A stretch of 64,000 bases of DNA, taken from NCBI RefSeq assembly GCF_014873755.1, contig NZ_JADBEG010000001.1:622501-686500 (forward strand), written 5' to 3'. The translations under genes were made by a program, and so were the position numbers. Under the pieces are notes generated by a model that did no database searches, was not told where the DNA came from, and worked only from the letters and a program-made list of their open reading frames with translations. The first letter of the stretch is position 1, and every line of letters begins with the position of its first letter. The stretch comes from Amycolatopsis lexingtonensis (GTDB lineage: Bacteria; Actinomycetota; Actinomycetes; Mycobacteriales; Pseudonocardiaceae). This document shows positions 1,680-28,926 of the stretch, in pieces.

Positions 1680-3674
1680 ATGACGACGCTCGTATCGTGG
1701 TGCTCCCGCCGCGCCGGTGCGGTCGTCGTGCTGTGGCTGCTGGCGTTGGGGGGCCTCGGTTCCGCCGCGCTGCACACCGGCGCGGCCTTCCGCGACACGA
1801 TCGACCTGCCCGCCGCGGACAGCACCGCGGCGGCGAACCTGCTGCGCGGCAGCGGTGCCGGCGGTGCCGAGGAACGGGTCGTCGCCCGCACGCCGGACAG
1901 CCCGATCGACACCGGCACCGGCCGGGCCCGGCTCGACGACTTTGCCGCCCGGCTGGCGGCGCTCCCGCACGTCGTCGCGGTCACCCCCGGCGCGGTGTCG
2001 GCCGATCGGCGGACCGCCGTGCTCACCGTGCGGTTCGACGCGCCGGCCGCCGACCTGGGGCAGGGGACGGCCGACGCGCTGGCCGCCGTCGTCCGCGACG
2101 CCCGCGGGCTGACCGCCGGGGCGGCCGGCGAGCTCGCCGCGATGACGGCGGCCGCGCCGGATCTGGGCAACGCCGGGATCGGCCTGCTCGCCGCGGCGCT
2201 GGTGCTGCTGGTGACCTTCGGCTCGCTGACCTGCGTGCTGCTGCCGGTGCTCACCGCGGCGGTCTCGGTGGGCTGCGCGCTGGCCGCCGTCACGCTGCTC
2301 TCGCACGTCATGACCGTCCCGAAGATCAGCACCGAGATCGCCGCCCTGCTGGGGCTCGGCGTCGGCGTCGACTACGCGCTGTTCGTGCTGACCCGCTACC
2401 GGCAGGGCCGCGGGGACGGCGCGTCACCGGCGGCCGCGCTGGCCGCCGCCGCGGCGACGTCCGGTCGCAGCGTGGTCTTCGCCGGCGTCACCGTGTGCGT
2501 CTCGCTGGCCGGGCTGCTGACCGTCGGCATGCCGTTCCTCGACGGGATCGCCGTGGCCGCCGCGGTTTCGGTGCTGCTGACCGCGTTCGCCGCGCTGACG
2601 CTGCTGCCCGCGTTGCTGCGGCCCGCCGCCGCCCGGATGCGCGTCAAGCCGGCGGGGAACGGCGGCCGCTGGGCCCGGCTCGCGCGCTCGGTGACCGCGC
2701 GGCCCGGGCCGTACACGCTGGCGGCGGTGCTGGTCGTGGCCGTGCTCGCGCTGCCGATGACCGGGCTGCGGCTCGGCGTGCCGGACGCCGCGCAGGACCC
2801 GCCCGGCAGCATCACCCGGACCGGCGCCGAGCTGCTGGCCGACGGGTTCGGTCCCGGCGCCGGCGCCCCGCTGCTGGTGGTGGGCACCGGCGACGCCTCG
2901 CTGGGCACGCTGCGGGAGGCGGTGCTCGCCCGCGCCGACGCCGGCCCGCCGGCCGCGCTGCCGGGTGGTGGCTGGCTGCTCACCGTGGTCCCGCGGACCG
3001 CGCCCGGCGACCCGGCCACCACCGAGCTGCTGACCTGGACGCGGACCATGGCGGCGACGATCGGCGGCCCGGACGCGCACGTCGGCGGGCTCGTCGCGAC
3101 CCAGGCCGACTTCTCGGCGGCGATCACCGCGCGGCTGCCGGTGTTCCTGGTCAGCGTCGTAGGCATCTCGGTCCTGCTGCTCGCCTGGGTGTTCCGCAGT
3201 GTGCTGATCCCGCTGACGGCGGCGGTGATGAACCTGCTGACGGCGGCCGCGACGACGGGCGCGGTGGTCCACACCTTCGGCGCCCCGATCGAGCCGTACC
3301 TGCCGGTGTTCCTGTTCGCCGGGCTGTTCGGGCTGTCGATGGACTACGAGGTCTTCCTCATCGCGCGCATCCAGGAAGCCTGGCGCCGCCACGGCGACAC
3401 CCGGGCCGCGGTCGTCGACGGCGTCGCGGCGACCGGCCGGACCATCACCGCGGCCGCGCTGATCATGGCGCTGGTGTTCGTGTCGTTCGCCTTCGTCGAC
3501 GCCCGGGTCGTGCGGGAAGCGGGCGTCGGGCTGACCGTCGCCGTGCTGCTGGACGCGATCGTCGTGCGGTGCGTGCTCGTGCCCGCGGTGATGGCCCGCC
3601 TCGGCGCCGCGAACTGGTGGTTCCCGCGCCGGCGCCGCGTCCGCACCCGTGAGCTGGCCGGGAGCGTGCGATGA
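1680..3674 (+). CDS. MMPL-family (RND superfamily) lipid transporter
   Basis: This 664-residue membrane protein has the duplicated RND layout: one N-terminal transmembrane helix (residues about 8-30), an extracytoplasmic loop, five helices (about 185-320), a second loop and five more helices (about 510-640). Both halves keep the proton-relay Asp-Tyr pairs seen in MmpL3: D231-Y232 (GVDYALFVLTRYR) and D555-Y556 (SMDYEVFLIARI). Such proteins flip or export lipids at the plasma membrane using the proton gradient. It is shorter than mycobacterial MmpL3 because it lacks the long cytoplasmic tail. The ATG at 1680 has GAGGAGG upstream. It overlaps the MFS gene by ATGA and opens the FAAL/PKS locus, so export of the PKS-derived lipid is the likely job. 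The substrate is inferred. Confidence 0.88.
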   Translation: MTTLVSWCSRRAGAVVVLWLLALGGLGSAALHTGAAFRDTIDLPAADSTAAANLLRGSGAGGAEERVVARTPDSPIDTGTGRARLDDFAARLAALPHVVAVTPGAVSADRRTAVLTVRFDAPAADLGQGTADALAAVVRDARGLTAGAAGELAAMTAAAPDLGNAGIGLLAAALVLLVTFGSLTCVLLPVLTAAVSVGCALAAVTLLSHVMTVPKISTEIAALLGLGVGVDYALFVLTRYRQGRGDGASPAAALAAAAATSGRSVVFAGVTVCVSLAGLLTVGMPFLDGIAVAAAVSVLLTAFAALTLLPALLRPAAARMRVKPAGNGGRWARLARSVTARPGPYTLAAVLVVAVLALPMTGLRLGVPDAAQDPPGSITRTGAELLADGFGPGAGAPLLVVGTGDASLGTLREAVLARADAGPPAALPGGGWLLTVVPRTAPGDPATTELLTWTRTMAATIGGPDAHVGGLVATQADFSAAITARLPVFLVSVVGISVLLLAWVFRSVLIPLTAAVMNLLTAAATTGAVVHTFGAPIEPYLPVFLFAGLFGLSMDYEVFLIARIQEAWRRHGDTRAAVVDGVAATGRTITAAALIMALVFVSFAFVDARVVREAGVGLTVAVLLDAIVVRCVLVPAVMARLGAANWWFPRRRRVRTRELAGSVR

Positions 3675-5059
3675 GGCGGCCGACGCTCCTGCTGCTCGCG
3701 CTCGGCGCGTTCGTCACCACGCTCGACAACACCATCGTCGCCGCCGGGGCGCCGTCGATCGGCCGCGACCTCGCGCTCGACCTCGGTGCGCTGCAGTGGA
3801 TCGCGCTCGGCTACATGCTCCCGTTCGCCGGATTGCTGCCGGCCGGGGGCGCGCTGGTGGACCGCTGGGGACCCCGCCGGACCTTGTCCGCCGCACTGCT
3901 CGCGTTCGGCTCCGGCGCGGCCGCCGGCGGGCTGGCCGGGTCGCTGTGGCTGCTGGTCGCCGCCCGCGTGCTGCAGGGCGTGGCGGCCGCGTTCCTGGTG
4001 CCCGGCCTGCTGAGCTTGCTGCGCACGAACCTCGACGCGCGGGGCCGGACGCTCGGCGCGGCGGTCTGGACCGCGTGCCTCGCGGCGGCGCTGGCGCTCG
4101 GCCCCGCGCTCGGCGGGATCCTGAGCGCTTCCCTGGGCTGGGCCTGGATCTTCTTCGTCAACCTCCCGTTCGTGGCGGCGATGTTCGTGCTGCTGCCGGC
4201 GACCACGGCACCCGGCCGCACCGACGGCGCGACCCGCGCACCGCCACTCGCGGCGATGGTCCTGGTGACGGCGAGCCTGGTGCTGCTCACCACCGCGCTG
4301 GCCGAACCCCGGTTCGCGCTCCCGCTGCTCGCCGCGGGGGCCGTGGTCGGCATGGTGTTCGCCGTCCGGGAGCGGCGGGCGCGGGACCGGCTGGTCCCGG
4401 CGGCGCTGACCGGCAACCGCGTGTTCACCGGCTCGCTCGGCCTGCAACTGCTGTGGGGACTGGGAATTTCCGGGATCTTCTTCTTCACGCCGTTGCTGCA
4501 CCAGGAGTTCCTCGGGCTCGGTCCGGTCGGGGCCGGCCTGCCGCTGGTCCTGGTCGCGGTGGCGGTCATCGCCGCGACGCCGCTGGTGCCGCGGGCCGTC
4601 GCCCGCCACTGTCCACTTCGGACGGTAGCGGGCGGGCTCGCCGTGGTCGGGGCCGGGCTGCTGGCCCTCGCCGCGGTCAACCGGATCCCGGAGATCTGGC
4701 CGCGGGTGCCCGGGCTGGTCCTGATCGGCGCGGGGTCGGCCTTCACCGTGCCGATGACGTCGCACGCGCTGGACGTCGTGGCGGAGCGGCATTCCGGCAC
4801 GGCGTCCGGATTGCTCACCGCCGCCCGGGAGCTGTCGAGCGCGCTCGGCGTCGCGCTGATCGGCGCGGTGCTGACGGCGGTGCGCGCGGTGCGGCTCGGC
4901 GCGGGTGCCGCGCCCCCGGTGGCGCTGGCCGGTGGCTACACCGCCGGCCTGCTCGCCGCGGCCGCGCTGACGTTCGCCGGCGCGCTGCTGGCCGTGCGCG
5001 TGGCGAAGACCCGTTCCGCCGATACCTCGTCGCCGCGTGACAAACGCGCGGTCCCGTAA
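3671..5059 (+). CDS. MFS transporter, DHA2 (EmrB/QacA) type
   Basis: This 462-residue protein is a strongly hydrophobic multi-span transporter. The first helix carries TTLDNTIVAAGAPSIGRDL, the DHA2 motif that includes the conserved Asp-Asn, and WIALGYMLPFAGLLPAGGAL followed by DRWGPRR gives the loop 2-3 motif A. Family members export drugs or amphipathic metabolites in exchange for protons. Its start overlaps the end of the MMPL gene by four bases, so the two are translationally coupled. It may export a product or precursor of the locus, or provide unrelated drug resistance; the sequence does not decide this. Confidence 0.85.
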   Translation: MRRPTLLLLALGAFVTTLDNTIVAAGAPSIGRDLALDLGALQWIALGYMLPFAGLLPAGGALVDRWGPRRTLSAALLAFGSGAAAGGLAGSLWLLVAARVLQGVAAAFLVPGLLSLLRTNLDARGRTLGAAVWTACLAAALALGPALGGILSASLGWAWIFFVNLPFVAAMFVLLPATTAPGRTDGATRAPPLAAMVLVTASLVLLTTALAEPRFALPLLAAGAVVGMVFAVRERRARDRLVPAALTGNRVFTGSLGLQLLWGLGISGIFFFTPLLHQEFLGLGPVGAGLPLVLVAVAVIAATPLVPRAVARHCPLRTVAGGLAVVGAGLLALAAVNRIPEIWPRVPGLVLIGAGSAFTVPMTSHALDVVAERHSGTASGLLTAARELSSALGVALIGAVLTAVRAVRLGAGAAPPVALAGGYTAGLLAAAALTFAGALLAVRVAKTRSADTSSPRDKRAVP

Positions 5060-5092
5060 CCCGTTTCCCGGTGAGCATCCGGGAACCGCCGA

Positions 5093-5120
5093 TTGACAAC
5101 CGCACGGGCGCGGCTATTCA
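5093..5120 (+). promoter_or_regulatory. sigma-70-type promoter before the FAAL gene
   Basis: A perfect -35 TTGACA at 5093-5098 is followed 16 bases later by TATTCA at 5115-5120, a fair -10 element. The ATG of the FAAL gene follows at 5152 with GAGGG upstream. This promoter implies that FAAL, PKS and carboxylase can be transcribed separately from the transporter pair. It also argues against a GTG start at 5071. Confidence 0.55.
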
Positions 5121-5151
5121 CTGCGCCGGTAAACGCTCTCTGCGAGGGACC

Positions 5152-6978
5152 ATGGAAACCATTTCCCAGCCGATTCCCGGTACGCCGGAAAAGCTCGACG
5201 ACGGCGAATCGTTCGCGACCCTGCTGGCCCGGTGGGCGCGGGTGCTCGGCGGCGAAACCGCCGTCACGTACCTGGACCACCGCGCCGCCGCGGACGGTCG
5301 CGCGGTCACGCTCACCTGGCGGGCGCTCGACGAGCGGGTCGACGCGGTCGCGGCGCGGCTCGCGGACATCGCGGCGCCGGGGGAGCGGGCGGCGGTACTG
5401 GCCGGGCAGTCGGCCGACTACGTCGTGGCTTTCCTCGGCGCGCTGCGGGCCGGGCTGGTCGCCGTGCCGCTGTTCGCCCCGGGGCTCCCCGGCCACGAAG
5501 GCCGCCTGGCCGGGGCGCTCGCCGACTGCACCCCGCGGGTCGTGCTCACCACCGCGGCGGACTTCGACGCGGTGCGCCAGTTCCTGATCCGACCGAAAGC
5601 AGGCGGACGCGGGGCCGCAGCCGATCCGCGCGACGCAACAGTTTCCGCCGTGGCTGCCGTCGGATCGGGAACCAACGACACAGTCACCGCCGGGCCCGAG
5701 GTCGTCGCCGTGGACGCGGTGCCGGAGGCCGAAGCGCGCGAGTGGCCGCGGCCCGATCCGGACGCCGTCGCCTACCTGCAGTACACGTCGGGCTCGACGC
5801 GCTCGCCCGCGGGCGTGGTGCTGACCCACCGCAACGTGCTCGCCAACGCCCGGCAGGCCTGCGCGGCCTACGGGGTCGAGAGCCGGACGACGTCGACGGT
5901 GAGCTGGCTGCCGCTGTTCCACGACATGGGCCTGATCCTGGGTATCGGCGCGCCGATGGTCGGCGGGATGGCGGCGGTGCTGATGGACCCGCTGGCGTTC
6001 CTCGAGCGGCCCGCGCGGTGGTTGCAAGCGCTTTCGGCGAGCCCGGGGGCGATCAGCGCGGCCCCCAACTTCGCCTACGCCTACAGCGCTTCCCGCGTGA
6101 CCGAGGCCGAAAAGGACTTCCTGGAGCTGAGCCGGGTCGTGTCGCTGATCAACGGCAGCGAACCGGTGCTCCCGGCCACGATCGCGAAGTTCCAGGACGC
6201 CTTCGGCGGGTGCGGGCTGCGGCCTGAAGTCCACCGATCGTCCTACGGCCTGGCGGAGGCCACCGTGCTCGTTTCCGTGACCGGCAGCGGGAAGGAACCC
6301 CGGCAGGTCACGTTCGACCGGGACCGCCTCGCCGCCGGGTTCGCCGTGCCGGCCGCGTCCGGCACCACGCTCGTCTCGTGCGGCCGCCCGGCCGGCCAGC
6401 GGGTGCGGATCGCCGACCCGGTGACCGGAAATGCCGCCGAGCCGGGGGAAGTCGGCGAAATCCGGGTCAGCGGGCCGAACGTCGGCCGCGGCTACTGGGG
6501 ACGGCCCGACGCGTCCGCGGCGATCTTCGGCCTGCCCCCGCTGGACCCGGACACCGGTGCGGGCTGGCTGGCGACCGGCGACCTCGGCGTGCTCTTCGAC
6601 GGCGAGCTGTTCGTCACCGGCCGGCTCAAGGACCTGGTCGTCGTCGACGGCCGCAACCACTACCCGCAGGACATCGAGCAGACGGTGGAGGCACACCCGG
6701 CCGTGCGGCCCCACTCGGCGGCGGCCTTCGCGATCGACGTCCCCGACGGAGAGGCGGCGGTGGTCGTGCTGGAACGCGCGAAGGACGCCGAAGCCGACGT
6801 CGCCGACGCGGTCGCGGACCTGCGGGCCGCGGTGTCGGCCGGGCACGGGCTGCGCCTGCACGACGTCGTCTTCCTGGCGCCCGGCGAGGTGCCGCGGACG
6901 TCGAGCGGGAAGATCAGCCGGGCCCGCTGCCGGGCGTCCTATGCGGACGGTTCGCTGGCCGAGCGGCGGCTCGCGTGA
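5152..6978 (+). CDS. fatty acyl-AMP ligase (FAAL), FadD32-like
   Basis: This 608-residue adenylate-forming enzyme is expected to activate a fatty acid as acyl-AMP and pass it to the N-terminal carrier domain of the adjacent PKS. Residues 211-216 read YTSGST and continue RSPAGV, where acyl-CoA synthetases have a Lys-Gly; R/A at these positions is typical of FAALs such as FadD32. Further signatures are SWLPLFHDMGL, RSSYGLAEATVLVS and the C-terminal GRLKDLVVVDGRNHYPQDIE. ATG 5152 is preferred over GTG 5071, which lies upstream of a good promoter. The stop overlaps the PKS start as GTGA, so the two proteins are probably made in equal amounts. Whether the product leaves as acyl-AMP or acyl-CoA needs assay. 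Confidence 0.88.
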   Translation: METISQPIPGTPEKLDDGESFATLLARWARVLGGETAVTYLDHRAAADGRAVTLTWRALDERVDAVAARLADIAAPGERAAVLAGQSADYVVAFLGALRAGLVAVPLFAPGLPGHEGRLAGALADCTPRVVLTTAADFDAVRQFLIRPKAGGRGAAADPRDATVSAVAAVGSGTNDTVTAGPEVVAVDAVPEAEAREWPRPDPDAVAYLQYTSGSTRSPAGVVLTHRNVLANARQACAAYGVESRTTSTVSWLPLFHDMGLILGIGAPMVGGMAAVLMDPLAFLERPARWLQALSASPGAISAAPNFAYAYSASRVTEAEKDFLELSRVVSLINGSEPVLPATIAKFQDAFGGCGLRPEVHRSSYGLAEATVLVSVTGSGKEPRQVTFDRDRLAAGFAVPAASGTTLVSCGRPAGQRVRIADPVTGNAAEPGEVGEIRVSGPNVGRGYWGRPDASAAIFGLPPLDPDTGAGWLATGDLGVLFDGELFVTGRLKDLVVVDGRNHYPQDIEQTVEAHPAVRPHSAAAFAIDVPDGEAAVVVLERAKDAEADVADAVADLRAAVSAGHGLRLHDVVFLAPGEVPRTSSGKISRARCRASYADGSLAERRLA

Positions 6979-9900
6979 ACGCGGCCGGGATCCGCGCCTG
7001 GCTGCTGGAGCGGCTCGGCGACGTCGACGCCGACCGTCCCCTCCACGAGCTGGGACTGTCCTCACGGGACGCGACGGCGCTCGCGGCCGACCTGGGCCGG
7101 TTCGTCGGCCGCCCGCTGGCGCCGACGCTCGTCTGGCAGTACCCGACGATCGCCGCGCTCGCCACCCACCTGTCCACAGTGGAATCAGCACGGATCCCGG
7201 AGCCGGTGGGGGAGACCGGGGAACCGATCGCGATCATCGGCCTCGGCTGCCGCCTGCCAGGCGGGATCGAGTCCCCGGAGGCGTTCTGGCGCTTCCTCGA
7301 TGCCGGTGGTGACGCGATCGGCGACGTCCCGGCGGGCCGCTGGGAAACGTTCGCGCCCGCCGAAGACCTTGCCGGCGTGCCGGCGCAGGGCGGCTTCCTC
7401 GACGACGTCGCCGGGTTCGACGCCGCGTTCTTCGGCATCACCCCGCGCGAAGCCGAGGCGATGGACCCGCAGCAGCGGATCCTCCTGGAAGTCGCGTGGG
7501 CGGCGCTGGAGCACGCCGGAATCCCGCCGCACCGCCTGCGCGGCAGCCGGACCGGCGTGTTCGTCGGGCTGTCGGCCACCGAGTACGGCTCGCTGACGAT
7601 GACCGACGTCGCGGGCGTCGACGTCTGGTCCGGGACCGGGGCGGCGGCCAGCATCGCCGCGAACCGGCTGTCGTACCTGCTCGACCTGCGCGGGCCGAGC
7701 CTCACGCTGGACACCGCGTGCTCGTCGTCGCTGGTCGCGGTGCACCAGGCGGTGCAGAGCCTGCGCCGCGGCGAGAGCGAAATCGCGCTGGCAGCCGGGG
7801 TGAACGTGCTGCTGTCGCCGGGGATCACAGCGGGGTTCCACCGGGCGGGGGTGCTCGCCGCCGACGGCCGGTGCAAGCCGTTCGACGCCGCCGCGGACGG
7901 CATTGTGCGCGGCGAGGGCTGCGGCGTGGTCGTGCTGAAGCCGTTGCGCGCGGCCCGGCGGGACGGCGACCGCGTACTGGCGCTGGTGCGGGGCAGCGCG
8001 GTGAATTCGGACGGCCGCTCCAACGGGCTGACGGCGCCGAACCCGGAAGCGCAGGCCGCGCTGTTGCGGGACGCCTACGCGGGGATCGATCCGTCCTCAG
8101 TGGACTACGTCGAGGCGCACGGAACCGGCACGCCGCTGGGAGATCCGCTGGAGGCCGGGGCGCTTTCGGCGGTCCTCGGGCGTGACGCGGACCGGCCGTT
8201 GCTGCTCGGCTCGGTCAAGAGCAACCTCGGGCACCTCGAAGGGGCGGCCGGGATCGCCGGAGTGCTCAAGGTGGTGCTGGCGATGACGCACCGGCGGCTG
8301 CCCCCGAGCCTGCATTTCCGTGCGCCGAACCCGTACATCGACTTCGACGGGCTGCGCGTGGTCACGGAGGGGACCCCGTGGCCGCGGTACTCCGGGACGG
8401 CGCGGGCCGGGGTGTCGGCGTTCGGGTTCGGGGGCACCAATGCCCACGTCGTGCTCGAAGAGTGGCCCGCCGCGGCGTTTCCGCCCCGGGTGGCTGCGGC
8501 AGGGCCGCAGGTGTTCGCGCTCTCGGGACGGTCGGACGCGGTGTTGCGGGCGCGGGCCGGGGAGCTGGCGGATTGGCTCGACGGGAGTAACGTGCCGCTG
8601 GGTGCGGTCGCGGCGACCCTGGCGCATCGGCGGGAGCACCTCCCGGTGCGGGGCGCGGTCGTGGGCGAGCGCCGGGAAGAAGTCGTCGAGGCGCTGCGCG
8701 AGCTGGCGGCCGGACGGGGTGTCGCGGGCCAGGCCGAACCCGAGCCCAGCGTCGTCTTCGTCTTCTCGGGCTACGGGTCGCAGTGGCCGGGCATGGGCCG
8801 GCTCCTGGTGGAATCGGAGCCCGACTTCCGGGCCGAAATCGACGCGCTCGATCCCGTTTTCCGCGCCGTAGCGGGGTTTTCCCTGCGGGAAGCGCTCGAC
8901 CGGGACCTGCCGGATCTCGCCGCGACCCAGCTCACCCTGTTCGGCGTGCAGCTCGCCCTCGCCGCGCTGTGGCGGGCGCACGGCGTCACCCCCGCGGCCG
9001 TCCTCGGGCACTCGATGGGTGAGGTCGCCGCGGCCGTCGTCGCCGGGGCGCTGGACGTGGCCGACGGCCTGCGGGTGATGGCCACCCGGGCGCGGCTGCT
9101 CGCCGAACTCGACGAGTCGGGAGCGGGGGCGATGGCCGTCGTCGAGCTCTCGCCCGCCGAACTCGCGGAGTTTCCGGAGGTCGCCATCGCGGTGTACGCG
9201 TCGGCCACCCAGTGCACCGTCAGCGGGCCCGCCGACCAGGTCGAAGCGCTGGTGGAGCACGCCGAACGCCTCGGACGACTCGCACGGAGACTGCCCGTCG
9301 GCGGGGCCGGGCACTCCGCCGCCGTCGACGCCGTGCTCGGTCGCCTCTGTGAAGACCTGGCCGGGCTCACCCCGGGCGAGGCCGGAATTCCGTGCTACAG
9401 CAGCGTTCTCGACGACCCGCGGGAGCGGCCCGCGTTCGACGTCGAGTACTGGGCCGCGAACCTGCGCCGTCCGGTGCGGTTCAGCCAGGCCCTCGCCGCG
9501 GCGGCCGCGGACGGGCACACCGCCTTCGTCGAGATCGCGCCGCACCCGGTCGCGCTCGCCGCGATCGAGCAGGCCGGCGTGCTCGGCCTGCCGTCGGGGA
9601 GCCGGCGGATCGACGAGCGGACGGCGTTCTTGACCAGCCTCGCCCGGCTGCACGTCCTGGGCGTGCCCGGCGTGCTCGACGCCCGGCCGCCGGCGGCGCC
9701 CGTCGAGCTGCCCGGGCCCGTCTGGCGGCACGAGCGGTTCTGGCTGCGGCGGCCCGTCCGCGCCGGCGGCGGGCACCCGCTGCTGGGTGTCCACATCGAA
9801 CACCCGGACGGCGGCCACCTCTGGCGCGCCGACGTCGGCACCGCGGTGCTGCCGTGGCTGGCCGACCACACCGTGCGGGGCCTGCCGGTGTTCCCGGCCA

Positions 9901-12900
9901 CCGGGTTCCTCGAGCTGGCCTTGGCCACCGGCGGGCACGTGCGCGACCTCGAACTGCGGGAAGTGCTCCCGCTGGCCGAGCACACCGAGGTGACGACCAG
10001 CCTGTCCGGCGGCGAGCTGAGCGTGCACGCCAAGTCCGCGGCCGGCGAGTGGGTCCGCCACGCCACGGCCCGCATCGGGACCGGCGGGACGCCGTCGCCG
10101 CCGCTCGGCGAGGTCGACGGGGAGCCCGTCGACGTCTACCGCGCGCTGGCGGAGCTGGGCCAGTCCTACGGGCCGGCGTTCCGCGGCCTGCGCCGGGTCG
10201 TGGCCGCGGACGGCCGCGCGTCGGCGTCGATCGCGCTGCCCGGAGCCGACCACCCGGCGTACGTGCTGCACCCCGCCCTCGCCGACGCCTGCCTGCACGC
10301 GCTGGCCGCGGCCGTTGGCGCGGCGGACGTCCTCTACCTGCCGCTTTCCGTGGGCGAGGTGGTCGTCGCGGGCGAGCCGCGCGAGGGCGTGCGGGTGGAC
10401 GCGATGGTCGCCCCGTCCGGCGACGGACTGCTCGGGAGCGTCCAGCTGGTCGATGCCGAGGACGTCGTCCTGGTCGAATTCCGGGACGTCTACTGCCGCC
10501 CGTTGCGCGACGCGGCGCTGGGACGGCTCCTCCTCGAAGCGACCTGGCAGCCGGCGGAGCTTCCCGTGGCGCCGGAGCGCCCGCACCACTGGATCGAGCT
10601 GGACACGGACCGCCTCGGCGATCGCGCGGTGCTCGCGAAGCTGGTGCGGGACGGGGAAACGACCGCGGTCGTCGCGCGCCTCGGTTCGGCGGGCGACCCG
10701 GATCCGGCGTCCGCCGCGCGGCTGGTCGAGACGCTGACCGGGGTCGTCGCCGAACTGGCCGAGCTGCCGGCGCCGCCGCGGTTGTGGCTGGCCACGGCGG
10801 GGGCGCAGGCCGTCCGGCCAGGGGAGGCGGGTGAGCCGGGGCTGGCCGCGGTGCGTGGGCTGGTGCGGGTGCTCGCGTTCGAGCACCCGGAACTGCGGGC
10901 GTCCTTGGTGGACTTGGACGACTTCGCGCGACTGGGTGATGAGGTCCGCGCGGATGCTCCGGACGACGAGATCGCGTGGCGCGACGGCGTCCGGTACACC
11001 CGGTGGCTGACTCGTCCGGAACTCGGGGAGGCGGTCCGCGAACCGGTCCGGGACGGCGCCTACATCATCACGGGCGGCTTGGGCGGCCTCGGCTTGGTGA
11101 CGGCGAAGTGGCTGGCCGAGCGCGGGGCGACGCGGGTGGTGCTCAGCAGCCGCCGCCCGATGGACGTCGGGGAGCTGGGTACCGAAGTCCGCGTGGTGCC
11201 CGGTGACATCGCCGAACCGGGGACCGCCGAAAAGCTGGTCGCGGCCGCCGTCGAAGGGGGCGTGCCGCTGCGTGGGGTGCTGCACGCCGCCGGTGTGCTC
11301 GCCGACGGGGCCGCGATCACCCTCGATGCCGGGGCGCTCGAGGCCGTCTGGCGGCCCAAGGCGCTGGGCGCTTGGCGGCTGCACCAGGCGACCGCCGGGC
11401 ACGACCTGGACTGGTGGCTCGTCTACTCCTCCGCCGCCGCGCTCTTCGGGTCGCCGGGCCAGGCCGCCTACGCCACCGCCAACGCCTGGGCCGACGCCCT
11501 CGTCGCTTGGCGTCGGGCTCAAGGGCTCCCCGCCGCGACCATCAACTGGGGCGCGTGGGGCGAGGTCGGCGCCGCGGCCGGGTCGGCGAACCCGGTGCTG
11601 ACGCCGCTCGGTACCGACGAAGCCCTGGCCGCGCTCGACGCCGTTCTGGCGTGCGACCGCCAGGAAACCGGAGTCGCCCGCATCGACGCCGGTACCGTCC
11701 TGGAACTGTTCCCGCGGCTCGCCGAACGCCCGTTCTTCAGCCTGTTCAGCCCGCCGAAACAGTCCACTTGGGACGGCATGAAAACCCTGCGGGCCGGGAC
11801 GCCCGAGCGGGCCAGGGCCGCGATCGCCGACCACCTCGCCGGGCTCATCGCAGACCTGCTGGGCTTCGCCGAGGTCGATCGGGACGTGCCGCTCACCCGG
11901 CTCGGGCTCGATTCGCTGTCGGCCATGCGGGCCCGCGGTGCCGTGGAACGCGATTTCGGGCTGCCGCTGCCGATTCCGCTGCTCCTGCGCGGCGCCAGCC
12001 TCGGTGAACTCGCCGGGCACCTCGCCGAGCAGGCCGGGTTCGGGACCGCCGCGCCCGTCGAGCGGGTCGTCGCCGGGCCGCGGGATCCGGCCGAACGGTG
12101 GGTGGCGCGCCATTGGCGGACCGTCGTGGGCGGGGCCGAACCCGGCGTGCACGACGACTTCTTCGCCGCGGGCGGCGATCCGGAACGGCTGCGGGCGCTG
12201 TTCGCCGCCGAACTCGACGTGGTGCCCGACCGGCTGTTCGACACCCCGACCGTCGCCGCGATGGCCGATCTGCTGCGGCCCGAGCTGGAAGGGCACGGGG
12301 GCGGGCCGGTGCGGGTGCTGCGGGACGGCGTCGCCGATCCGGTGTTCCTGTTCCACCCGGCGGGCGGCCGGGCGAGCGTCTACCGCGAGCTGGTGCGGCT
12401 GCTGCCGGAAGGGCAGCCGGTGTACGGGTTCGAGCGGATCGACGACGAGGACACCGTCGAGGGCAAGGCCGCCTGCTACGCCGAGCTGGTCCGCGAGATC
12501 CAGCCGGACGGCCCCTACCGGCTCGGCGGCTGGTCGTTCGGCGGCTGCCTGGCCTACGAGACCGCGCGGCGGCTCGGCGGCGCCGAACTGGTGTTCCTGA
12601 TCGACACCATCCTGCCGCTGCCCGCACCCGAAACCCCGGTGGAAGAGCTGCTGCTGGACCGCTTCGACCGGTTCGCCGACCACGTTTCGCGGACGTACGG
12701 GGTGCCGTTCTCGGTGCCGCGCGAGGAACTCACGCGCCTCGACGAGGACGCGCAGATCCGGTGGGTGATGGCGAAACTCGCCGAGCACGTGCCGGACCTC
12801 GGCGCCGGGGTGCTGCGGCACCAGTACGAGTCCTATGTGGACGCCCGGGTCGCCGAGCGGTACACCCCCGCGCGCTACGACGGGCGGGTGGTGCTGCTGC

Positions 12901-13100
12901 GGGCGCAGGACCCGCACCCGCTGACCACCGCGCTGGACCCGCGGTACCTGCGCACCGACGACACCCTCGGCTGGGACGCGTACTGCCCCGCGCTCGACGT
13001 CGTGCGGGTGCCCGGTGACCACGTGTCGATGATCGACCCGCCGCACGTGACGGAGCTGGCGGCCGCGCTCGCCGCGCGGCTCGGGACAGGGGTGCGGTGA
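6975..13100 (+). CDS. Pks13-like iterative/modular type I polyketide synthase: ACP-KS-AT-DH-KR-ACP-(carrier remnant)-TE
   Basis: This 2041-residue synthase should condense a FAAL-supplied acyl chain with a carboxylated extender. Domains in order: N-terminal ACP (about 1-70, attachment Ser30 in LGLSSRD); KS (83-500, Cys249, His382, His420); AT (about 593-870, Ser680 in GHSMG, His780); DH (about 930-1190, His965 in HxxxGxxxxP, Asp1104); KR (about 1360-1530, GGLGGLG from 1367, Ser1486, Tyr1499, Asn1503); ACP (Ser1647 in LGLDSL); a carrier-like segment (about 1700-1760) with no attachment Ser; TE (about 1765-2041, Ser1854 in GWSFGG). An N-terminal ACP plus a C-terminal TE next to FAAL and AccD is the Pks13 plan, but Pks13 lacks DH and KR. 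At the AT specificity site, where YASH or HAFH is expected, it reads GAGH (777-780). All catalytic residues checked are present, so a reduced alpha-branched acid is a reasonable product guess. Starts with GTG inside the FAAL stop. Confidence 0.92.
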   Translation: MNAAGIRAWLLERLGDVDADRPLHELGLSSRDATALAADLGRFVGRPLAPTLVWQYPTIAALATHLSTVESARIPEPVGETGEPIAIIGLGCRLPGGIESPEAFWRFLDAGGDAIGDVPAGRWETFAPAEDLAGVPAQGGFLDDVAGFDAAFFGITPREAEAMDPQQRILLEVAWAALEHAGIPPHRLRGSRTGVFVGLSATEYGSLTMTDVAGVDVWSGTGAAASIAANRLSYLLDLRGPSLTLDTACSSSLVAVHQAVQSLRRGESEIALAAGVNVLLSPGITAGFHRAGVLAADGRCKPFDAAADGIVRGEGCGVVVLKPLRAARRDGDRVLALVRGSAVNSDGRSNGLTAPNPEAQAALLRDAYAGIDPSSVDYVEAHGTGTPLGDPLEAGALSAVLGRDADRPLLLGSVKSNLGHLEGAAGIAGVLKVVLAMTHRRLPPSLHFRAPNPYIDFDGLRVVTEGTPWPRYSGTARAGVSAFGFGGTNAHVVLEEWPAAAFPPRVAAAGPQVFALSGRSDAVLRARAGELADWLDGSNVPLGAVAATLAHRREHLPVRGAVVGERREEVVEALRELAAGRGVAGQAEPEPSVVFVFSGYGSQWPGMGRLLVESEPDFRAEIDALDPVFRAVAGFSLREALDRDLPDLAATQLTLFGVQLALAALWRAHGVTPAAVLGHSMGEVAAAVVAGALDVADGLRVMATRARLLAELDESGAGAMAVVELSPAELAEFPEVAIAVYASATQCTVSGPADQVEALVEHAERLGRLARRLPVGGAGHSAAVDAVLGRLCEDLAGLTPGEAGIPCYSSVLDDPRERPAFDVEYWAANLRRPVRFSQALAAAAADGHTAFVEIAPHPVALAAIEQAGVLGLPSGSRRIDERTAFLTSLARLHVLGVPGVLDARPPAAPVELPGPVWRHERFWLRRPVRAGGGHPLLGVHIEHPDGGHLWRADVGTAVLPWLADHTVRGLPVFPATGFLELALATGGHVRDLELREVLPLAEHTEVTTSLSGGELSVHAKSAAGEWVRHATARIGTGGTPSPPLGEVDGEPVDVYRALAELGQSYGPAFRGLRRVVAADGRASASIALPGADHPAYVLHPALADACLHALAAAVGAADVLYLPLSVGEVVVAGEPREGVRVDAMVAPSGDGLLGSVQLVDAEDVVLVEFRDVYCRPLRDAALGRLLLEATWQPAELPVAPERPHHWIELDTDRLGDRAVLAKLVRDGETTAVVARLGSAGDPDPASAARLVETLTGVVAELAELPAPPRLWLATAGAQAVRPGEAGEPGLAAVRGLVRVLAFEHPELRASLVDLDDFARLGDEVRADAPDDEIAWRDGVRYTRWLTRPELGEAVREPVRDGAYIITGGLGGLGLVTAKWLAERGATRVVLSSRRPMDVGELGTEVRVVPGDIAEPGTAEKLVAAAVEGGVPLRGVLHAAGVLADGAAITLDAGALEAVWRPKALGAWRLHQATAGHDLDWWLVYSSAAALFGSPGQAAYATANAWADALVAWRRAQGLPAATINWGAWGEVGAAAGSANPVLTPLGTDEALAALDAVLACDRQETGVARIDAGTVLELFPRLAERPFFSLFSPPKQSTWDGMKTLRAGTPERARAAIADHLAGLIADLLGFAEVDRDVPLTRLGLDSLSAMRARGAVERDFGLPLPIPLLLRGASLGELAGHLAEQAGFGTAAPVERVVAGPRDPAERWVARHWRTVVGGAEPGVHDDFFAAGGDPERLRALFAAELDVVPDRLFDTPTVAAMADLLRPELEGHGGGPVRVLRDGVADPVFLFHPAGGRASVYRELVRLLPEGQPVYGFERIDDEDTVEGKAACYAELVREIQPDGPYRLGGWSFGGCLAYETARRLGGAELVFLIDTILPLPAPETPVEELLLDRFDRFADHVSRTYGVPFSVPREELTRLDEDAQIRWVMAKLAEHVPDLGAGVLRHQYESYVDARVAERYTPARYDGRVVLLRAQDPHPLTTALDPRYLRTDDTLGWDAYCPALDVVRVPGDHVSMIDPPHVTELAAALAARLGTGVR

Positions 13101-14677
13101 TGGACGAACTCATGCCGGGCACGGCGTTCCGGATCGCCGACCTCGCCGCGCGGCAGGACGAAGCCGTTCGGATCGCCGAGAAGCGGGCCGTCGACCGGCA
13201 GCACGCCAAGGGCAAGCTGACCGCGCGCGAACGAATCGGCCTGCTGCTGGACCCCGGATCCTTTGTGGAGCTGGACCAGTTCGCGCGGCACCGGTGCGCC
13301 GAGTTCGGGATGGACGCCAACCGGCCGTGGGGCGACGGCGTGGTGACCGGGCACGGCACCGTCGACGGGCGGCAGATCTGCGTGTTCTCCCAGGACTTCA
13401 GCGTCTTCGGCGGGAGCATGGGCGAAGTCTCGGGCGAGAAGGTCCTCAAGGTGATGGACCTCGCGATGTCGCTGGGCTGCCCGGTCGTCGGGATCAACGA
13501 CTCCGGCGGCGCCCGGATCCAGGAAGGCGTCGTCTCGCTGGCGTACTACGCCGAGCTGGGCCGCCGCAACGCGCACGCCTCCGGCGTCATCCCGCAGATT
13601 TCGATGATCATGGGCCCGTGCGCGGGCGGCGCCGTCTACGCGCCCGCGATCACCGACTTCACCGTGATGGTCGACGGGACCTCGCACATGTTCGTCACCG
13701 GCCCGGACGTCGTGCACGCGGTCACCGGCGAGCGGGTGACCGCGCAGGAGCTCGGCGGCGCGGCCGTCCAGTCCGAAGTGGCCGGCAACGCCCACCACCG
13801 CGCGGTGTCCGAAGAGGACGCCGTCGAGTGGGTGCAGACCCTGCTCGGCTACCTGCCGCAGAACAACCTCGACCTCGCCCCGGAGTACGCCGACGACACC
13901 AGTCCCGTCGTCACGCCGGCCGACCTCGCGCTCGACCGGCTGGTGCCCGACTCGCCACACCGGACCTACGACATGGCCGAGCTGATCGCCGCGCTGGTCG
14001 ACGACGGCGACTACACCGAGGTGCACAGTGCCTTCGCACCCAACATGATCTGCGCGTTCGGCCGGGTCCAGGGCCGGTCGGTCGGCGTCGTCGCCAACCA
14101 GCCGCGCCACCAGGCCGGCGTGCTCGACATCGACGCGTCCGAGAAGGCGGCCCGGTTCGTGCGCTTCTGCGACGCCTTCGGGATCCCGCTGCTCACCCTC
14201 GCCGACGTCCCCGGCTACCTGCCGGGCACCGGGCAGGAACGCGGCGGGATCATCCGCCGCGGCGCGAAGCTGATCTACGCCTACTCGGAGGCGACGGTGC
14301 CGAAGGTGACCGTGGTGGTGCGCAAGGCTTACGGCGGCGGCTACGCGGTGATGGGCTCGAAGCACCTCGGCGCTGACGCCGTGCTGGCGTGGCCCACCGC
14401 CGAAATCGCGGTGATGGGGGCCGAAGGCGCGGTGCAGGTGCTGCACCGGCGCGAGCTGGCCGCGTTGCCGCCGCAGCAACGGGAAGCCACCCGCCGCCGG
14501 CTCACCGAGGAGTACCGCGAGCGCCACGGCGGCCCGTACCTCGCCGCCGAACGCGGGTACGTCGACCAGGTCGTCACGCCGTCGCAGACCCGCCTGCACG
14601 TGGCGCGGGCGCTGCGGACCCTGCGGACCAAACGGCAGACCCTGCCGGCGAAGAAGCACGGCAACATCCCCCTGTGA
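13100..14677 (+). CDS. acyl-CoA carboxylase beta subunit (carboxyltransferase), AccD4/PccB family
   Basis: This 525-residue carboxyltransferase moves CO2 from carboxybiotin to acyl-CoA to make the extender unit for the neighbouring PKS. Both crotonase-fold halves are complete: the acyl-CoA site GGARIQEGVVSL and CAGGAVYAPAI in the N-half, and VPGYLPGTGQERGGIIRRG with KAYGGGYAVMGSKHL in the C-half. Position A416 corresponds to Asp422 of Streptomyces coelicolor PccB, a residue known to set acyl chain preference, so the substrate may differ from propionyl-CoA. No alpha (biotin) subunit is present; one must be supplied from elsewhere. ATG 13100 overlaps the PKS stop (TGATG); a GTG at 13097 is equally possible. 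The link to long-chain substrates rests on the AccD4-like position. Confidence 0.88.
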   Translation: MDELMPGTAFRIADLAARQDEAVRIAEKRAVDRQHAKGKLTARERIGLLLDPGSFVELDQFARHRCAEFGMDANRPWGDGVVTGHGTVDGRQICVFSQDFSVFGGSMGEVSGEKVLKVMDLAMSLGCPVVGINDSGGARIQEGVVSLAYYAELGRRNAHASGVIPQISMIMGPCAGGAVYAPAITDFTVMVDGTSHMFVTGPDVVHAVTGERVTAQELGGAAVQSEVAGNAHHRAVSEEDAVEWVQTLLGYLPQNNLDLAPEYADDTSPVVTPADLALDRLVPDSPHRTYDMAELIAALVDDGDYTEVHSAFAPNMICAFGRVQGRSVGVVANQPRHQAGVLDIDASEKAARFVRFCDAFGIPLLTLADVPGYLPGTGQERGGIIRRGAKLIYAYSEATVPKVTVVVRKAYGGGYAVMGSKHLGADAVLAWPTAEIAVMGAEGAVQVLHRRELAALPPQQREATRRRLTEEYRERHGGPYLAAERGYVDQVVTPSQTRLHVARALRTLRTKRQTLPAKKHGNIPL

Positions 14678-14694
14678 CGAGTCGAGGAGTCGCG

Positions 14695-15669
14695 ATGAAG
14701 CGATGGGCTTTGCTGGCGTTGTCCGCCGTGCTCTTGGTGGCCGCCGGGGGCGTGACCCCGGCCGTGGCCGCCCCGGCGGTGGCCGACGACGGGGCGAAGG
14801 TCGTCGGGGAGACCTGGGTGGACGCCCGGACCGTCGACCTCAAGATCAGCTCGCCCGCGCTCGGCACCACCGGGATGGTCCGGCTGATCGTGCCGGCCGG
14901 GTGGGCCGCGCAGCCGAGCCGGACCTGGCCGGTGCTGTTCCTGCTGCACGGCTGCTGCGAACCCGTCGACTACAAGTCGTGGGACCAGTTCACCGACGTC
15001 AAGGCGTTCACCGCGAACAAGGACGCCCTCGTCGTGATGCCGACCGACGGGCCGGCCGGGATGTACACCAAGTGGTGGAACTTCGGCTTGGGCAGCACTC
15101 CCGACTGGGACACCTTCCACACCGCCGAAGTGCGCCAGATCGTCGAACGCGGCTACCGCGGCGGCACTCAGCGCGCGGTCGCCGGGCTGTCGATCGGCGG
15201 GTACGGCGCGCTCGCGTACGCGTTCAAGCACCCGGGGATGTTCGGCGCGGCCGCCTCCTACAGCGGCGTGCCGAACACCCTCTTTCCCGGCATCCCGGTC
15301 TGGATCATCGGCATCCTCGCCCGCGCCGGCATCTACAACTACCTCCAGCTGTGGGGCGATTCCTTCGGGATGCGGCCGCTCTGGTCGGCCGCCAACCCGT
15401 ACGACCACGTCGACCAGCTGCGCGGCACGGCGCTCTACATCTCGTGCGGCAACGGCCAGACCGGGCCGCTCGACCCGCCCGGCCAGTCCGACGTCCTGGA
15501 GCCCTCGGCACTGCTGTCTTCGCAGAGCTTCACGGATCTGCTGCGGGCCAAGGGGATTCCCGCGACCGTCGACTACTACGGGCCGGGCACGCACAGCTGG
15601 CCGTACTGGCAGCGGGCCCTGCACAACTCCTGGCCGGTCCTGGCCGGCGCCCTCGGCCTGCCCGCCTGA
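14695..15669 (+). CDS. secreted esterase of the PF00756 (esterase D/antigen 85) family
   Basis: This 324-residue protein begins with a Sec signal peptide (MKRWALLALSAVLLVAAGG...AVAAPA, cleavage near residue 26). The alpha/beta-hydrolase core follows, with the oxyanion region FLLHGCC, nucleophile Ser166 in GLSIGG and a catalytic His300 in GTHSWPYW. Antigen 85 mycolyltransferases belong to the same family but have a different elbow sequence, so family membership alone does not prove acyl transfer to a sugar. GAGGAG precedes ATG 14695 and the gene lies 17 bases after the carboxylase, clearly in the same operon. An extracellular acyltransferase or esterase acting on the exported lipid is the likeliest role. 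Confidence 0.8.
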   Translation: MKRWALLALSAVLLVAAGGVTPAVAAPAVADDGAKVVGETWVDARTVDLKISSPALGTTGMVRLIVPAGWAAQPSRTWPVLFLLHGCCEPVDYKSWDQFTDVKAFTANKDALVVMPTDGPAGMYTKWWNFGLGSTPDWDTFHTAEVRQIVERGYRGGTQRAVAGLSIGGYGALAYAFKHPGMFGAAASYSGVPNTLFPGIPVWIIGILARAGIYNYLQLWGDSFGMRPLWSAANPYDHVDQLRGTALYISCGNGQTGPLDPPGQSDVLEPSALLSSQSFTDLLRAKGIPATVDYYGPGTHSWPYWQRALHNSWPVLAGALGLPA

Positions 15670-15699
15670 CCGAATTCCCCTCTACCGATGGAGGTTGTG

Positions 15700-16908
15700 G
15701 TGAAGTCCGTCCACGTGCGACAGCTGGTGTCGGCGCTGGTGAGCTGCTGCCTGGTGGCACTGGGGGTGGTGGCCGCGAGCCCGCCCGCCGGCGCGGCGCC
15801 GATCCTGCCCGGGCCGTTCGACGACTCGTTCTACACCCCGCCGTCGCCGCTGCCGGCCGGGAAACCCGGGGACGTGCTCCGCTGGCGCCCCACCGTCCCG
15901 CTGCTCAACGCGGCCAACGCCGACGCCTGGCAGGTGATGTACCTCTCGACCAACGCACAGGGCCGGCCGGACGCGGTGACCGGGACGATCCTGGTGCCCA
16001 AGGGGAAGGACCCGGCCACGGCGCCGATCGTCGGCTACGCGGTGGGCACGCAGGGCCCGGCGTTCAAGTGCACGGCGTCCAAGGCGATGGAGCGGGGGAC
16101 GCTGTACGACCAGCCCGCCATCAACGACTCGCTCTCGAGCGGGTACGCGGTCGCGGTGACCGACTACGAGGGCTACTCCCCGGCGACCGTGCCCACCTAC
16201 ATCACCGGGCAGTCGATGGGGCCGGCCGTGATCGATTCGGTGCGGGCGGCGCAGAACCTCCCGTCCGCCGGGCTGGCCAAGGGCGCCAAGGTGATCTTCC
16301 AGGGCTACTCGCAGGGTGGCGGCGGAGCGATGTGGGCGGGGGAGAAGCAGCCCTCGTACGCGCCGGAGCTGAACCTCGTCGGTGTCGTCGCGGGCGGGAT
16401 CCCGGCCGACCTCACCGAGGTCGCCAAGGGGCTCGACGGGTACATCGGGTTCGGGTTCCTCGCGTTCGCCGCGGTCGGGCTGGACGCGGCCTATCCGGAC
16501 CTGAAACTGGATTCGTTCCTCAACGACACGGGCCGGCAGCAGTTGTCGGACGCCAAGAAGAACGCCTGCGTCGCGGAACTGCTGCTGAACTATTCGTTCA
16601 AGAAGATCAGTGACTACACGACGTCGAACCCGCTGGCCACTCCGCAGTGGCAGGCGCGGCTGGCGCAGAACAAGCTGGGTGCGAACCCGCCGCGGGTGCC
16701 GGTGTTCCAGTACCACGCGAGCACCGACGAGATCGTCAACACCCCGCAGGCGGAGACGCTGCACCGGACGTACTGCGCGGCGGGCGTCCGGGAGCAGTGG
16801 AAGACCTACATCTCCGACCACGCCACCGGGATCTTCGCCGGCAACGCCGACGCCCACCAGTGGATCGTCAACCGCTTCACGGGGGCGGCGGCGCCGTCGA
16901 ACTGCTGA
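15700..16908 (+). CDS. secreted LIP-family triacylglycerol lipase
   Basis: This 402-residue exported hydrolase resembles the secretory lipase family (PF03583, Candida antarctica lipase A type). A signal peptide with core LVSALVSCCLVALGVVAAS ends near AGAAP. Nucleophile Ser204 lies in GYSQGGGG, and the late HASTDEIVN and DHATGIF segments supply the Asp and His of the triad. GGAGG at 15690-15694 lies 5 bases before GTG 15700, whereas the ATG at 15688 contains the site itself, so GTG is chosen. It sits 30 bases after the esterase gene and ends 4 bases from the convergent cutinase. Hydrolysis of host or environmental lipids, or turnover of the locus lipid, both fit. Confidence 0.85.
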   Translation: MKSVHVRQLVSALVSCCLVALGVVAASPPAGAAPILPGPFDDSFYTPPSPLPAGKPGDVLRWRPTVPLLNAANADAWQVMYLSTNAQGRPDAVTGTILVPKGKDPATAPIVGYAVGTQGPAFKCTASKAMERGTLYDQPAINDSLSSGYAVAVTDYEGYSPATVPTYITGQSMGPAVIDSVRAAQNLPSAGLAKGAKVIFQGYSQGGGGAMWAGEKQPSYAPELNLVGVVAGGIPADLTEVAKGLDGYIGFGFLAFAAVGLDAAYPDLKLDSFLNDTGRQQLSDAKKNACVAELLLNYSFKKISDYTTSNPLATPQWQARLAQNKLGANPPRVPVFQYHASTDEIVNTPQAETLHRTYCAAGVREQWKTYISDHATGIFAGNADAHQWIVNRFTGAAAPSNC

Positions 16909-16912
16909 GGCG

Positions 16913-17563
16913 TCAGACCTTCGTAGCGGCGAAGGCTGCTGCGTCGGCGGCGTTGTTGCCGTAGCTCAGGTGGGCCAGGAAGTTGAAGCCGCCCGCCTGG
17001 CAGATCGGATCGCCGCCGGCGCAGTAGTCCTTGGTGCGGCTCTGATACGTGCCGGTGACCTGGCGGCCGAGCGCGCGGATCGGGTTGCCGAACAGCAGGA
17101 TCGCCGCGATCCGGGGCGCGAGGTCGGCGGGGATGGTCGCGACGATCGGGCCGCCGACGACGGCGCCGTCGCTGCTGATGCCGATCGAGTTGTCGACGAC
17201 GTTGGCGCCCTGGGAGTAGCCGATCAGCACGAACCGCTGCTGCGGGCAGGCCGCGGCCTGCGCTTTGACGTGGTCGACCAGATCGGTGTTTCCCTTCTGG
17301 ACCGACGCGGGCTCGCCGAGGTCGGCCGGGTAGTCGACCCGGTAGCTGCTGAGCGAACGCGGGCGCAGCGTGTTCTGGACCGCTTGGTAGACGGGGTCGC
17401 CGACGATGAAGCCCAGCGTGCCGGGTTCGCCGGTGCCGCGGGCGACCGGGACGTCGATGTCGGTGCACGGCGCGGCGGCCGAGGCCGCGGGTGCAGCGGC
17501 GACGCCGAGACCGGTGACGGCGAGGCCGAGCGCGGCGGCGGCGGAAAACAGGCGTGTTTTCAT
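16913..17563 (-). CDS. secreted cutinase-family serine esterase
   Basis: This 216-residue protein has a signal peptide ending at ASAAAP (about residue 31) and a complete cutinase domain: Cys33 and Cys106 for the first disulfide, nucleophile Ser117 in GYSQGA, Cys181 and Cys188, Asp185 in GDPIC and His198. In mycobacteria a cutinase-like protein (Rv3802c, Culp6) is encoded beside fadD32-pks13-accD4 and acts on cell-envelope lipids. This gene is convergent with the LIP lipase, leaving only 4 bases between stops. Its own promoter must lie in 17564-17718. The native substrate (cutin, glycerolipid or a wall lipid) is not readable from sequence. Confidence 0.88.
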   Translation of the reverse strand: MKTRLFSAAAALGLAVTGLGVAAAPAASAAAPCTDIDVPVARGTGEPGTLGFIVGDPVYQAVQNTLRPRSLSSYRVDYPADLGEPASVQKGNTDLVDHVKAQAAACPQQRFVLIGYSQGANVVDNSIGISSDGAVVGGPIVATIPADLAPRIAAILLFGNPIRALGRQVTGTYQSRTKDYCAGGDPICQAGGFNFLAHLSYGNNAADAAAFAATKV

Positions 17564-26932: not shown

Positions 26933-26940
26933 GGGCGCTC

Positions 26941-28844: not shown

Positions 28845-28879
28845 ACACGCCTCCTTGCCGCCGGGCCGGTCCGGCACCT

Positions 28880-28905: not shown

Positions 28906-28926
28906 GCCGGTCCAGAGGAGGGTGTG

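Follow-up and report, generated by a model that had tools for sequence, protein, structure and literature searches.

Our analysis describes a putative lipid biosynthesis locus in a window of 64,000 nucleotides (the whole stretch of DNA analysed), which occupies positions 622,501-686,500 of the 10.74 Mb, single-contig genome of Amycolatopsis lexingtonensis. In this locus a fatty acyl-AMP ligase (FAAL), a single-module type I polyketide synthase (PKS), an acyl-CoA carboxylase carboxyltransferase subunit (CT) and a predicted secreted esterase (EST) follow one another at 5152-15669. Judged from its sequences, the locus is real, conserved and related by several separate features to the mycolate condensation system encoded by fadD32-pks13-accD4. 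The outer membrane of mycobacteria and related bacteria is defined by mycolic acids, which Amycolatopsis is not known to make. The kinship extends beyond gene order because the specificity motif of the acyltransferase (AT) domain, a degenerate carrier domain (pseudo-ACP), the specificity residues of the CT and the clade of the FAAL are all shared; the parallel to the mycolate locus drawn in an earlier, preliminary description of the stretch is thus upheld. The synthase differs from Pks13 in having dehydratase (DH) and ketoreductase (KR) domains with catalytic residues, where Pks13 has only a pseudo-DH. We propose that it is probably a Pks13-related, self-reducing synthase which, together with the FAAL, an MccB/AccD4-type CT and a mycolyltransferase-like EST, makes a 2-alkyl-2-enoic acid that is exported and esterified outside the cell. 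It would represent a family of Pks13 relatives that share the odd features of this enzyme and still carry in full a domain that seems to survive in Pks13 as a relic; the direction of synthase evolution becomes testable by structure and phylogeny, and a specific, searchable lipid class, the 2-alkyl-2-enoic acids, is predicted in Amycolatopsis.

Seven genes form a run on the forward strand (an MMPL-family exporter, an MFS exporter, FAAL, PKS, CT, EST and a secretory lipase), which is preceded by a PucR-type regulator and followed by a cutinase, both on the reverse strand (Table 1). Overlaps of up to 4 bases join MMPL to MFS, FAAL to PKS and, if the CT starts at its GTG, PKS to CT. Every gene named in the preliminary description was found where it had been placed; the MFS exporter, the secretory lipase and the degenerate third carrier were absent from that account. 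The suggestion of an Amycolatopsis host is confirmed by the closest relative of the PKS, a protein of A. lexingtonensis with 97% identity; among the 120 matches listed, of 7974 scored, the named proteins are mostly from Amycolatopsis.

A locus survey of named bacterial genomes covered the best 77 loci of 577 confirmed relatives, among which 27 loci of this type belong to Pseudonocardiaceae (Amycolatopsis, Actinokineospora and Streptoalloteichus); these are referred to as the family. Synteny across these Pseudonocardiaceae loci is complete for the core, with FAAL, CT and EST adjoining the PKS in all 27 loci, and because of this constancy the arrangement is not chance. The gene content, the motifs and the conservation of the locus are direct observations. 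The remaining genes accompany the core in at least 23 (MFS), 16 (PucR), 14 (lipase), 12 (MMPL) and 10 (cutinase) of the 27 loci, these counts being minima, as some loci (L025 and L031, for example) end at a contig edge. On these counts the MMPL protein and the cutinase, which had been presented as parts of the system, were rejected as core components. Among the same 77 loci, 13 from Rhodococcus or Rhodococcoides begin with esterases, followed in turn by FAAL, PKS and CT.

Searches of whole genomes gave a broader view of its spread. The FAAL was found in 25 (E<=1e-120) and the EST in 43 (E<=1e-60) of 120 genomes of the host family, and in 15 of the 120, as in the window, some 6-9 kb separate the two genes on one strand (read from coordinates). 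Within the host genus, 59 of 80 genomes have the FAAL (E<=1e-120) and 56 the EST (E<=1e-100); 48 genomes have both at 70% identity or more, on one strand and separated by about 8 kb (again read from coordinates). Additional pairs were seen in G182, where the FAAL is truncated, and in G151 and G155, where more distant copies lie 6-8 kb apart. Core-genome status in Amycolatopsis, which five of five genomes had at first indicated, fell when the 80 genomes were searched. Many genomes of the genus also have a second FAAL copy, with an identity of about 54-57%.

Pfam finds KS, AT, DH, KR, carrier and thioesterase (TE) domains in the PKS. Ser30 of the N-terminal acyl carrier protein (ACP), previously named as the residue loaded by the FAAL, does lie in the motif LGLSSRD, which aligns with the Pks13 rows, and the FAAL gene overlaps the start of the PKS. 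In the DH domain the catalytic His, the motif Pro, the Asp and the following His/Gln are kept in all 27 family loci, while the Gly of the HxxxGxxxxP motif is Asp in six of them; the Ser, Tyr and Asn of the KR are kept in 27 of 27. The two domains look intact, and processing on the synthase, as had been suggested, is therefore plausible. Of the two outcomes previously allowed, an unsaturated or a beta-hydroxy acid, the intact DH speaks for the former, and the predicted product is an alpha-alkyl, alpha,beta-unsaturated acid.

At the four AT residues aligned to the known site of extender specificity, the window synthase and those of the 27 family loci all have GAGH (28/28). Pks13 AT domains (n=17) have GAGH in 13 cases and GASH in four, whereas G-A-(G/S)-H occurs in none of the 112 other AT domains retained after filtering by length and score (106 belonging to other PKSs and 6 to modular PKSs of the host), in which VASH, HAFH and YASH dominate. 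We infer that GA(G/S)H selects long carboxyacyl units. The motif is GAGH in two and AAGH in two members of a related Streptomyces group, and VAGH in both the Actinosynnema locus L058 and a paralogue encoded elsewhere in the host genome.

The CT leads in the same direction. In a tree of 33 rows (36 minus 5 distant rows, plus 2 PDB sequences) the family CTs form one clade (bootstrap/SH-aLRT 99/98) with MccB, the stambomycin medium-chain acyl-CoA carboxylase (PDB 5inf), and next to this clade stand the AccD4-type CTs that accompany Pks13 (90/80), with PccB/AccD5 lying apart. MccB takes longer chains through Gly161 and Ala423, positions at which PccB has Phe and Asp (PMC5187497). The G161/A423 pair (MccB numbering) is present in the window CT, in MccB, in seven of eight family CT rows, the exception being one Actinokineospora row with Ala at 161, and in all five CTs of Pks13 loci; at these positions F is paired with D or C in all nine natural rows of PccB/AccD5 type, the PDB row of PccB, a D-to-A mutant, standing outside the nine. 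A plain PccB/AccD5 carboxylase was rejected on the tree and these residues. The pair points to an alkylmalonyl extender, which the CT would supply by carboxylating an acyl-CoA longer than propionyl. The window CT is 70% identical to MccB and 65% to PccB; it differs from MccB in adjoining a one-module PKS rather than a modular macrolide PKS, and in having A/I in place of the pocket residues I396/F399.

A further link to Pks13 is the carrier-like stretch between the second ACP (ACP2) and the TE, which lacks the GGDS serine in 18 of 18 aligned synthases, family and Pks13 alike; work on Pks13 has described this domain as a cryptic or inactive ACP (PMC9210659; PMC11649247). Profile-profile alignment of the family and Pks13 stretches gave an hhalign E of 5.5e-12, and a family-only profile (15 rows, the own-genome paralogue included and no Pks13 from mycolate taxa) finds PDB 6c4v and the Pks13 entry 9f48 with E about 1e-11. 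When a combined profile was built from 26 analysed sequences, 60 rows scored 69 bits or more, all of them family or Pks13 genes and some of them overlapping loci of one gene; the rest scored 44 or less. The best matches outside the family are loci of the host genome around thioesterase domains (L191, L192, L195 and L190), which hints that the pseudo-ACP and TE may derive from the terminus of a non-ribosomal peptide synthetase (NRPS).

The Pks13 of M. tuberculosis has, after its AT, a pseudo-dehydratase (DH*) that resembles the N-terminal half of a DH without the catalytic residues (PMC11649247). In a Pfam search of three Pks13 proteins no DH came up, even with E relaxed to 10. The Pks13 stretch between AT and ACP2 aligns with the post-AT linker and DH of the family (E 7e-15), and with the common linker removed the Pks13 stretch and the family DH still score 59.6 (E 4.2e-9). 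The same stretch also aligns, at a lower score of 42.1 (E 4.7e-6), with 26 DH domains of other PKSs, which counts against a special tie to the family; the maxima in 40 column-shuffled controls were 17.4 for the family DH and 19.2 for the other DHs. DH ancestry of the DH* stretch is well supported by these alignments, while its derivation from a family-type DH in particular is suggested by the score margin only. Because Pks13 carries this relic, the loss of DH and KR in Pks13 is more likely than their gain in the window synthase; the preliminary description was correct that both domains are present, and its view of them as additions more likely has the direction reversed. Pks13 would most simply be a sister that lost its KR and whose DH decayed to DH*. 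The paralogue at 1.70 Mb of the host genome has only 58 residues at the DH position, so there may have been more than one loss, or a more complex course of events. A wider scenario, which we put forward as doubtful speculation, is that the family preserves, in living form, the self-reducing condensase from which Pks13 descended: mycolate-free actinomycetes might attach alpha-alkyl enoic acids of their own (beta-hydroxy acids in Streptomyces) to arabinogalactan or another surface glycan through a sister of the mycolyltransferases, and reduction might have passed to a separate enzyme in the Pks13 line.

The best PDB matches of the FAAL are FadD32-type chains. In a tree of 38 sequences the window FAAL falls in a 26-row clade with FadD32 (96/91), outside which the ligases mostly adjoin PpsA-type synthases; it thus branches apart from ordinary clusters and appears to stand at sister level to FadD32. 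In the KS tree (68 rows, 11 of 79 having been dropped as long-branched, distant or duplicate) the family, Pks13, the own-genome paralogue, the Streptomyces group, L058 and one Actinomadura synthase come together, weakly (77/77), with PpsA-type starter KSs just outside. Within this tree the Pks13 rows form a clade of their own (100/100) that leaves out the window PKS, and the family with DH and KR another (96/91). The KSs of modular and later Pps-type synthases make up a separate 100/100 clade with the family outside it, so the KS is set apart from those ordinary clusters; the tree is compatible with kinship of the KS to Pks13 but does not decide between Pks13 and PpsA as the closer relative. 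The TE tree was poorly resolved, and 3 of 18 other thioesterase loci of the host genome were long and good enough for inclusion. Separately, a contig filed as an Acidobacteria metagenome-assembled genome (L041) carries Pps-type PKS genes whose KSs pair with those of Mycolicibacter, and is likely mis-binned or contaminated.

For the EST the best PDB matches are PS1 (173 bits), Cmt1 and Ag85. Its Ser-Glu-His triad aligns with those of Ag85C and PS1, the Glu being Asp in two Actinokineospora relatives, and its signal peptide was judged by eye from the N-terminus. A midpoint-rooted tree of 52 rows, with no outside group, places the family, two more esterases of the host, the Streptomyces group, L058 and one Nocardia protein in an 18-row group (100/99) apart from 34 other esterases, all from mycolate-bearing genera. 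The EST thus appears to be sister to the mycolyltransferases and to differ from them in its acceptor site. An Emb-type arabinosyltransferase is encoded in the host genome, and an arabinan acceptor may thus be available, with no observed link between that enzyme and the EST. Among the accessory proteins, MMPL scores 182 bits with the NCBIfam MmpL3 model (cut-off 1400), MFS 146 bits with TIGR00711 (cut-off 230) and the cutinase 23 bits with the NCBIfam CulP6 model (cut-off 570). Between MMPL and MFS the A. tucumanensis locus L013 (4255-6807) has an S15-family hydrolase and a ribonucleotide-reductase-R2-like protein, and L045 has a gap of equal size at the same place.

The pathway proposed here is inferred as regards enzyme activities, the lengths of the chains, the rounds of condensation, the acceptor and the location of the product. 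In it the FAAL would make an acyl-AMP and load it on Ser30 of the N-terminal ACP, as expected from its homology to FadD32. The CT, with a housekeeping biotin subunit, would make an alkylmalonyl-CoA longer than methylmalonyl, to judge by G161/A423, and the AT, to judge by GAGH, would load this unit for a single condensation by the KS. The KR and then the DH, whose catalytic residues are present, would take the beta-keto chain through the beta-hydroxy to the trisubstituted enoyl form, and the TE would release or transfer it. The MFS exporter, joined by MMPL in some species, is predicted to export the product, and the predicted secreted EST (Ser-Glu-His) would pass the acyl group to an acceptor, not necessarily trehalose.

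Several observations weigh against this pathway or against so close a relationship to the mycolate system. The FAAL reaches 502 bits with the NCBIfam FadD32 model, against a cut-off of 975, and two general FAAL models score higher (553 and 545). Of the NCBIfam models the one for Pks13 fits the PKS best, at 1277 bits with the next model at 1228; its cut-off is 2100, which a Rhodococcus Pks13 (L062) taken as a control passes with 2670. Among PDB chains the PKS scores higher with mycocerosic acid synthase (MAS) than with Pks13, partly because MAS also has DH and KR. The family-only pseudo-ACP profile also matches active NRPS carriers with similar or better total scores, and approximately unbiased (AU) tests on the KS tree rejected neither the grouping of all 29 TE-bearing rows (p-AU 0.38) nor that of the family with the PpsA-type rows (0.45), so the tree was dropped as proof of kinship with Pks13. 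These last two results, together with the fact that FAAL-loaded PKSs are common, would suit a convergent assembly in which an unrelated FAAL, PKS and esterase were joined and resemble the mycolate locus only on the surface; with the AT motif, the pseudo-ACP, the CT residues and the DH/DH* correspondence all coinciding in one set of synthases, we regard this as very unlikely. The match to MAS, an iterative enzyme, is what an iterative synthase building a polyunsaturated or multiply branched chain might give, and a single module with KR and DH and without an enoyl reductase (ER) domain could iterate. Iteration is nevertheless improbable, since Pks13, which has the same N-terminal ACP start and pseudo-ACP-TE end, runs one elongation cycle (PMC9210659), and since loading of a long chain from the N-terminal ACP onto the KS suits a single step. 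The extender could also be ordinary methylmalonyl-CoA, giving a 2-methyl-2-enoic (tiglic-type) acid; the identity of the CT to PccB is little below that to MccB, and one family CT has Ala for Gly at 161, but G161/A423 as in MccB/AccD4, the CT tree and an AT motif of GAGH rather than YASH make this quite unlikely.

Harder to set aside, and in our view a considerable if minority possibility, is that the same enzymology yields a lipid or glycolipid secreted in soluble form, as a natural product or surfactant, which the EST finishes or hydrolyses outside the cell. The conserved exporter (23/27) is a DHA2-type MFS protein, which suits small-molecule export. The locus is also patchy: 21 of the 80 genomes of the genus have no FAAL at E<=1e-120, and no FAAL-EST pair was found in 27 of the 80 at the thresholds used. 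The two genes are separated in G148 (on different contigs) and G152 (by over 4 Mb, at 3850774 and 8100262 of contig C1), and close copies in G155 lie tens of kb apart (C1 6752567-6822665), so that the locus may have been broken up in G152 and G155. Its distribution, common but not universal in the genus, weighs against an indispensable wall component; the wall lipid proposed in the preliminary description is a possible product. The LLDGLR segment of Ag85, whose Asp and Arg we take to contact trehalose, is LLHGCC in the window EST; LLDGLR is missing from Cmt1 and several esterases of mycolate genera as well and defines Ag85/PS1 only. An uncharacterised bioemulsifier from A. tucumanensis, the species that carries locus L013, is listed in a review (PMC4365757). 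What favours extracellular esterification of the enoic acid over a soluble product is that the best solved relatives of the EST are mycolyltransferases and that, given the Emb-type arabinosyltransferase in the genome, a polysaccharide acceptor is at hand.

A cryptic cluster with homologues of MccB and SamR0482 and a single PKS module, widely conserved in Amycolatopsis and of unknown product, has been reported (Ray et al. 2016, PMC5187497). The accessible text gives no accession, yet this cluster is almost surely the window locus, since the two agree in genus, in having a ligase and a lone PKS module, and in an MccB-type CT whose specificity residues are identical. In that text Pks13, FAAL loading and an esterase are not mentioned in connection with the cluster, and SamR0482 is described as a homologue of an acyl-CoA ligase, whereas the window ligase falls among FAALs and not CoA ligases. 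No title or opening of an abstract tying such a locus to Pks13 was found in the open-licence literature, and the available text of two papers mentions Pks13 in mycolate-bearing genera only (PMC7413640; PMC12159101); Amycolatopsis sulphurea has been set apart from the mycolate-bearing suborder (PMC4365757). The Pks13 structure papers, in their accessible parts, describe the dead DH* and the dead ACP and name no relative with a live DH, no search having been aimed at the origin of the synthase.

Set beside fadD32-pks13-accD4, the window has in common with it a FAAL, a synthase of the order N-ACP-KS-AT-...-ACP-pseudoACP-TE and a long-chain-type CT, all in the same sequence, Ag85/PS1-like esterases nearby and the AT motif GA(G/S)H; apart from DH and KR, it differs in a CT that is nearer to MccB and an EST that lies outside the clade of mycolate-genus esterases. 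In the paralogue locus L176 of the host genome a FAAL and a divergent, mycolyltransferase-like esterase accompany a synthase that has just the Pks13 domains (ACP-KS-AT-ACP-pseudoACP-TE); unlike in the window, no DH or KR was found in it, no CT lies beside its PKS and its AT motif is VAGH. Four Streptomyces loci (L040, L051, L052 and L053, with the PKS from about 9,200-16,600) have a FAAL, the same synthase order and an esterase, but no CT was detected in the loci as retrieved. Their DH domains have lost the catalytic His while the KR residues are kept, for which reason a beta-hydroxy, alpha-branched acid would be expected there.

Table 1. Genes and synthase domains of the locus (window positions) and the paralogue locus of the host genome.
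Feature	Position	Strand	Basis or remark
PucR-type regulator	194..1450	-	divergent neighbour; 16/27 relatives
MMPL-family (RND) exporter, accessory	1680..3674	+	Pfam MMPL; 12/27 relatives
MFS exporter, DHA2/EmrB-like	3671..5059	+	Pfam MFS_1; 23/27 relatives
Fatty acyl-AMP ligase (FAAL)	5152..6978	+	start ATG 5152; best PDB matches FadD32-type; tree
Single-module type I PKS, ACP-KS-AT-DH-KR-ACP-pseudoACP-TE	6975..13100	+	Pfam, motifs
N-terminal ACP	6978..7202	+	LGLSSRD motif, Ser30
KS	7221..8477	+	Cys-His-His motifs present
AT	8754..9578	+	GAGH motif, as in Pks13
DH	9774..10520	+	HTVRGLPVFP and D..LH motifs
KR	11055..11561	+	Ser/Tyr/Asn present
Second ACP (ACP2)	11835..12023	+	LGLDSL
Degenerate carrier (pseudo-ACP)	12072..12311	+	without pantetheine Ser; matches Pks13 pseudo-ACP
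TE	12339..13082	+	GWSFGG Ser, Asp and His
Acyl-CoA carboxylase carboxyltransferase subunit (CT), MccB/AccD4 type	13097..14677	+	tree, specificity residues
Predicted secreted esterase/acyltransferase (EST), mycolyltransferase-like (PS1, Cmt1, Ag85)	14695..15669	+	PDB matches, triad
Secretory lipase (LIP family), accessory	15688..16908	+	Pfam; 14/27 relatives
Cutinase, accessory	16913..17563	-	Pfam; 10/27 relatives
Own-genome paralogue locus L176	genome about 1,690,000-1,709,900		ORFs 6837-13510 (-), 13729-14760 (+)

Downstream of the locus, at 19758-30456 of the window, lie genes for two short-chain dehydrogenases/reductases (SDRs), two CoA-transferase subunits, a luciferase-like monooxygenase, another SDR, an acyl-CoA dehydrogenase and an acyl-CoA ligase. 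These look like a catabolic cluster, which we presume may serve the breakdown of steroid rings.

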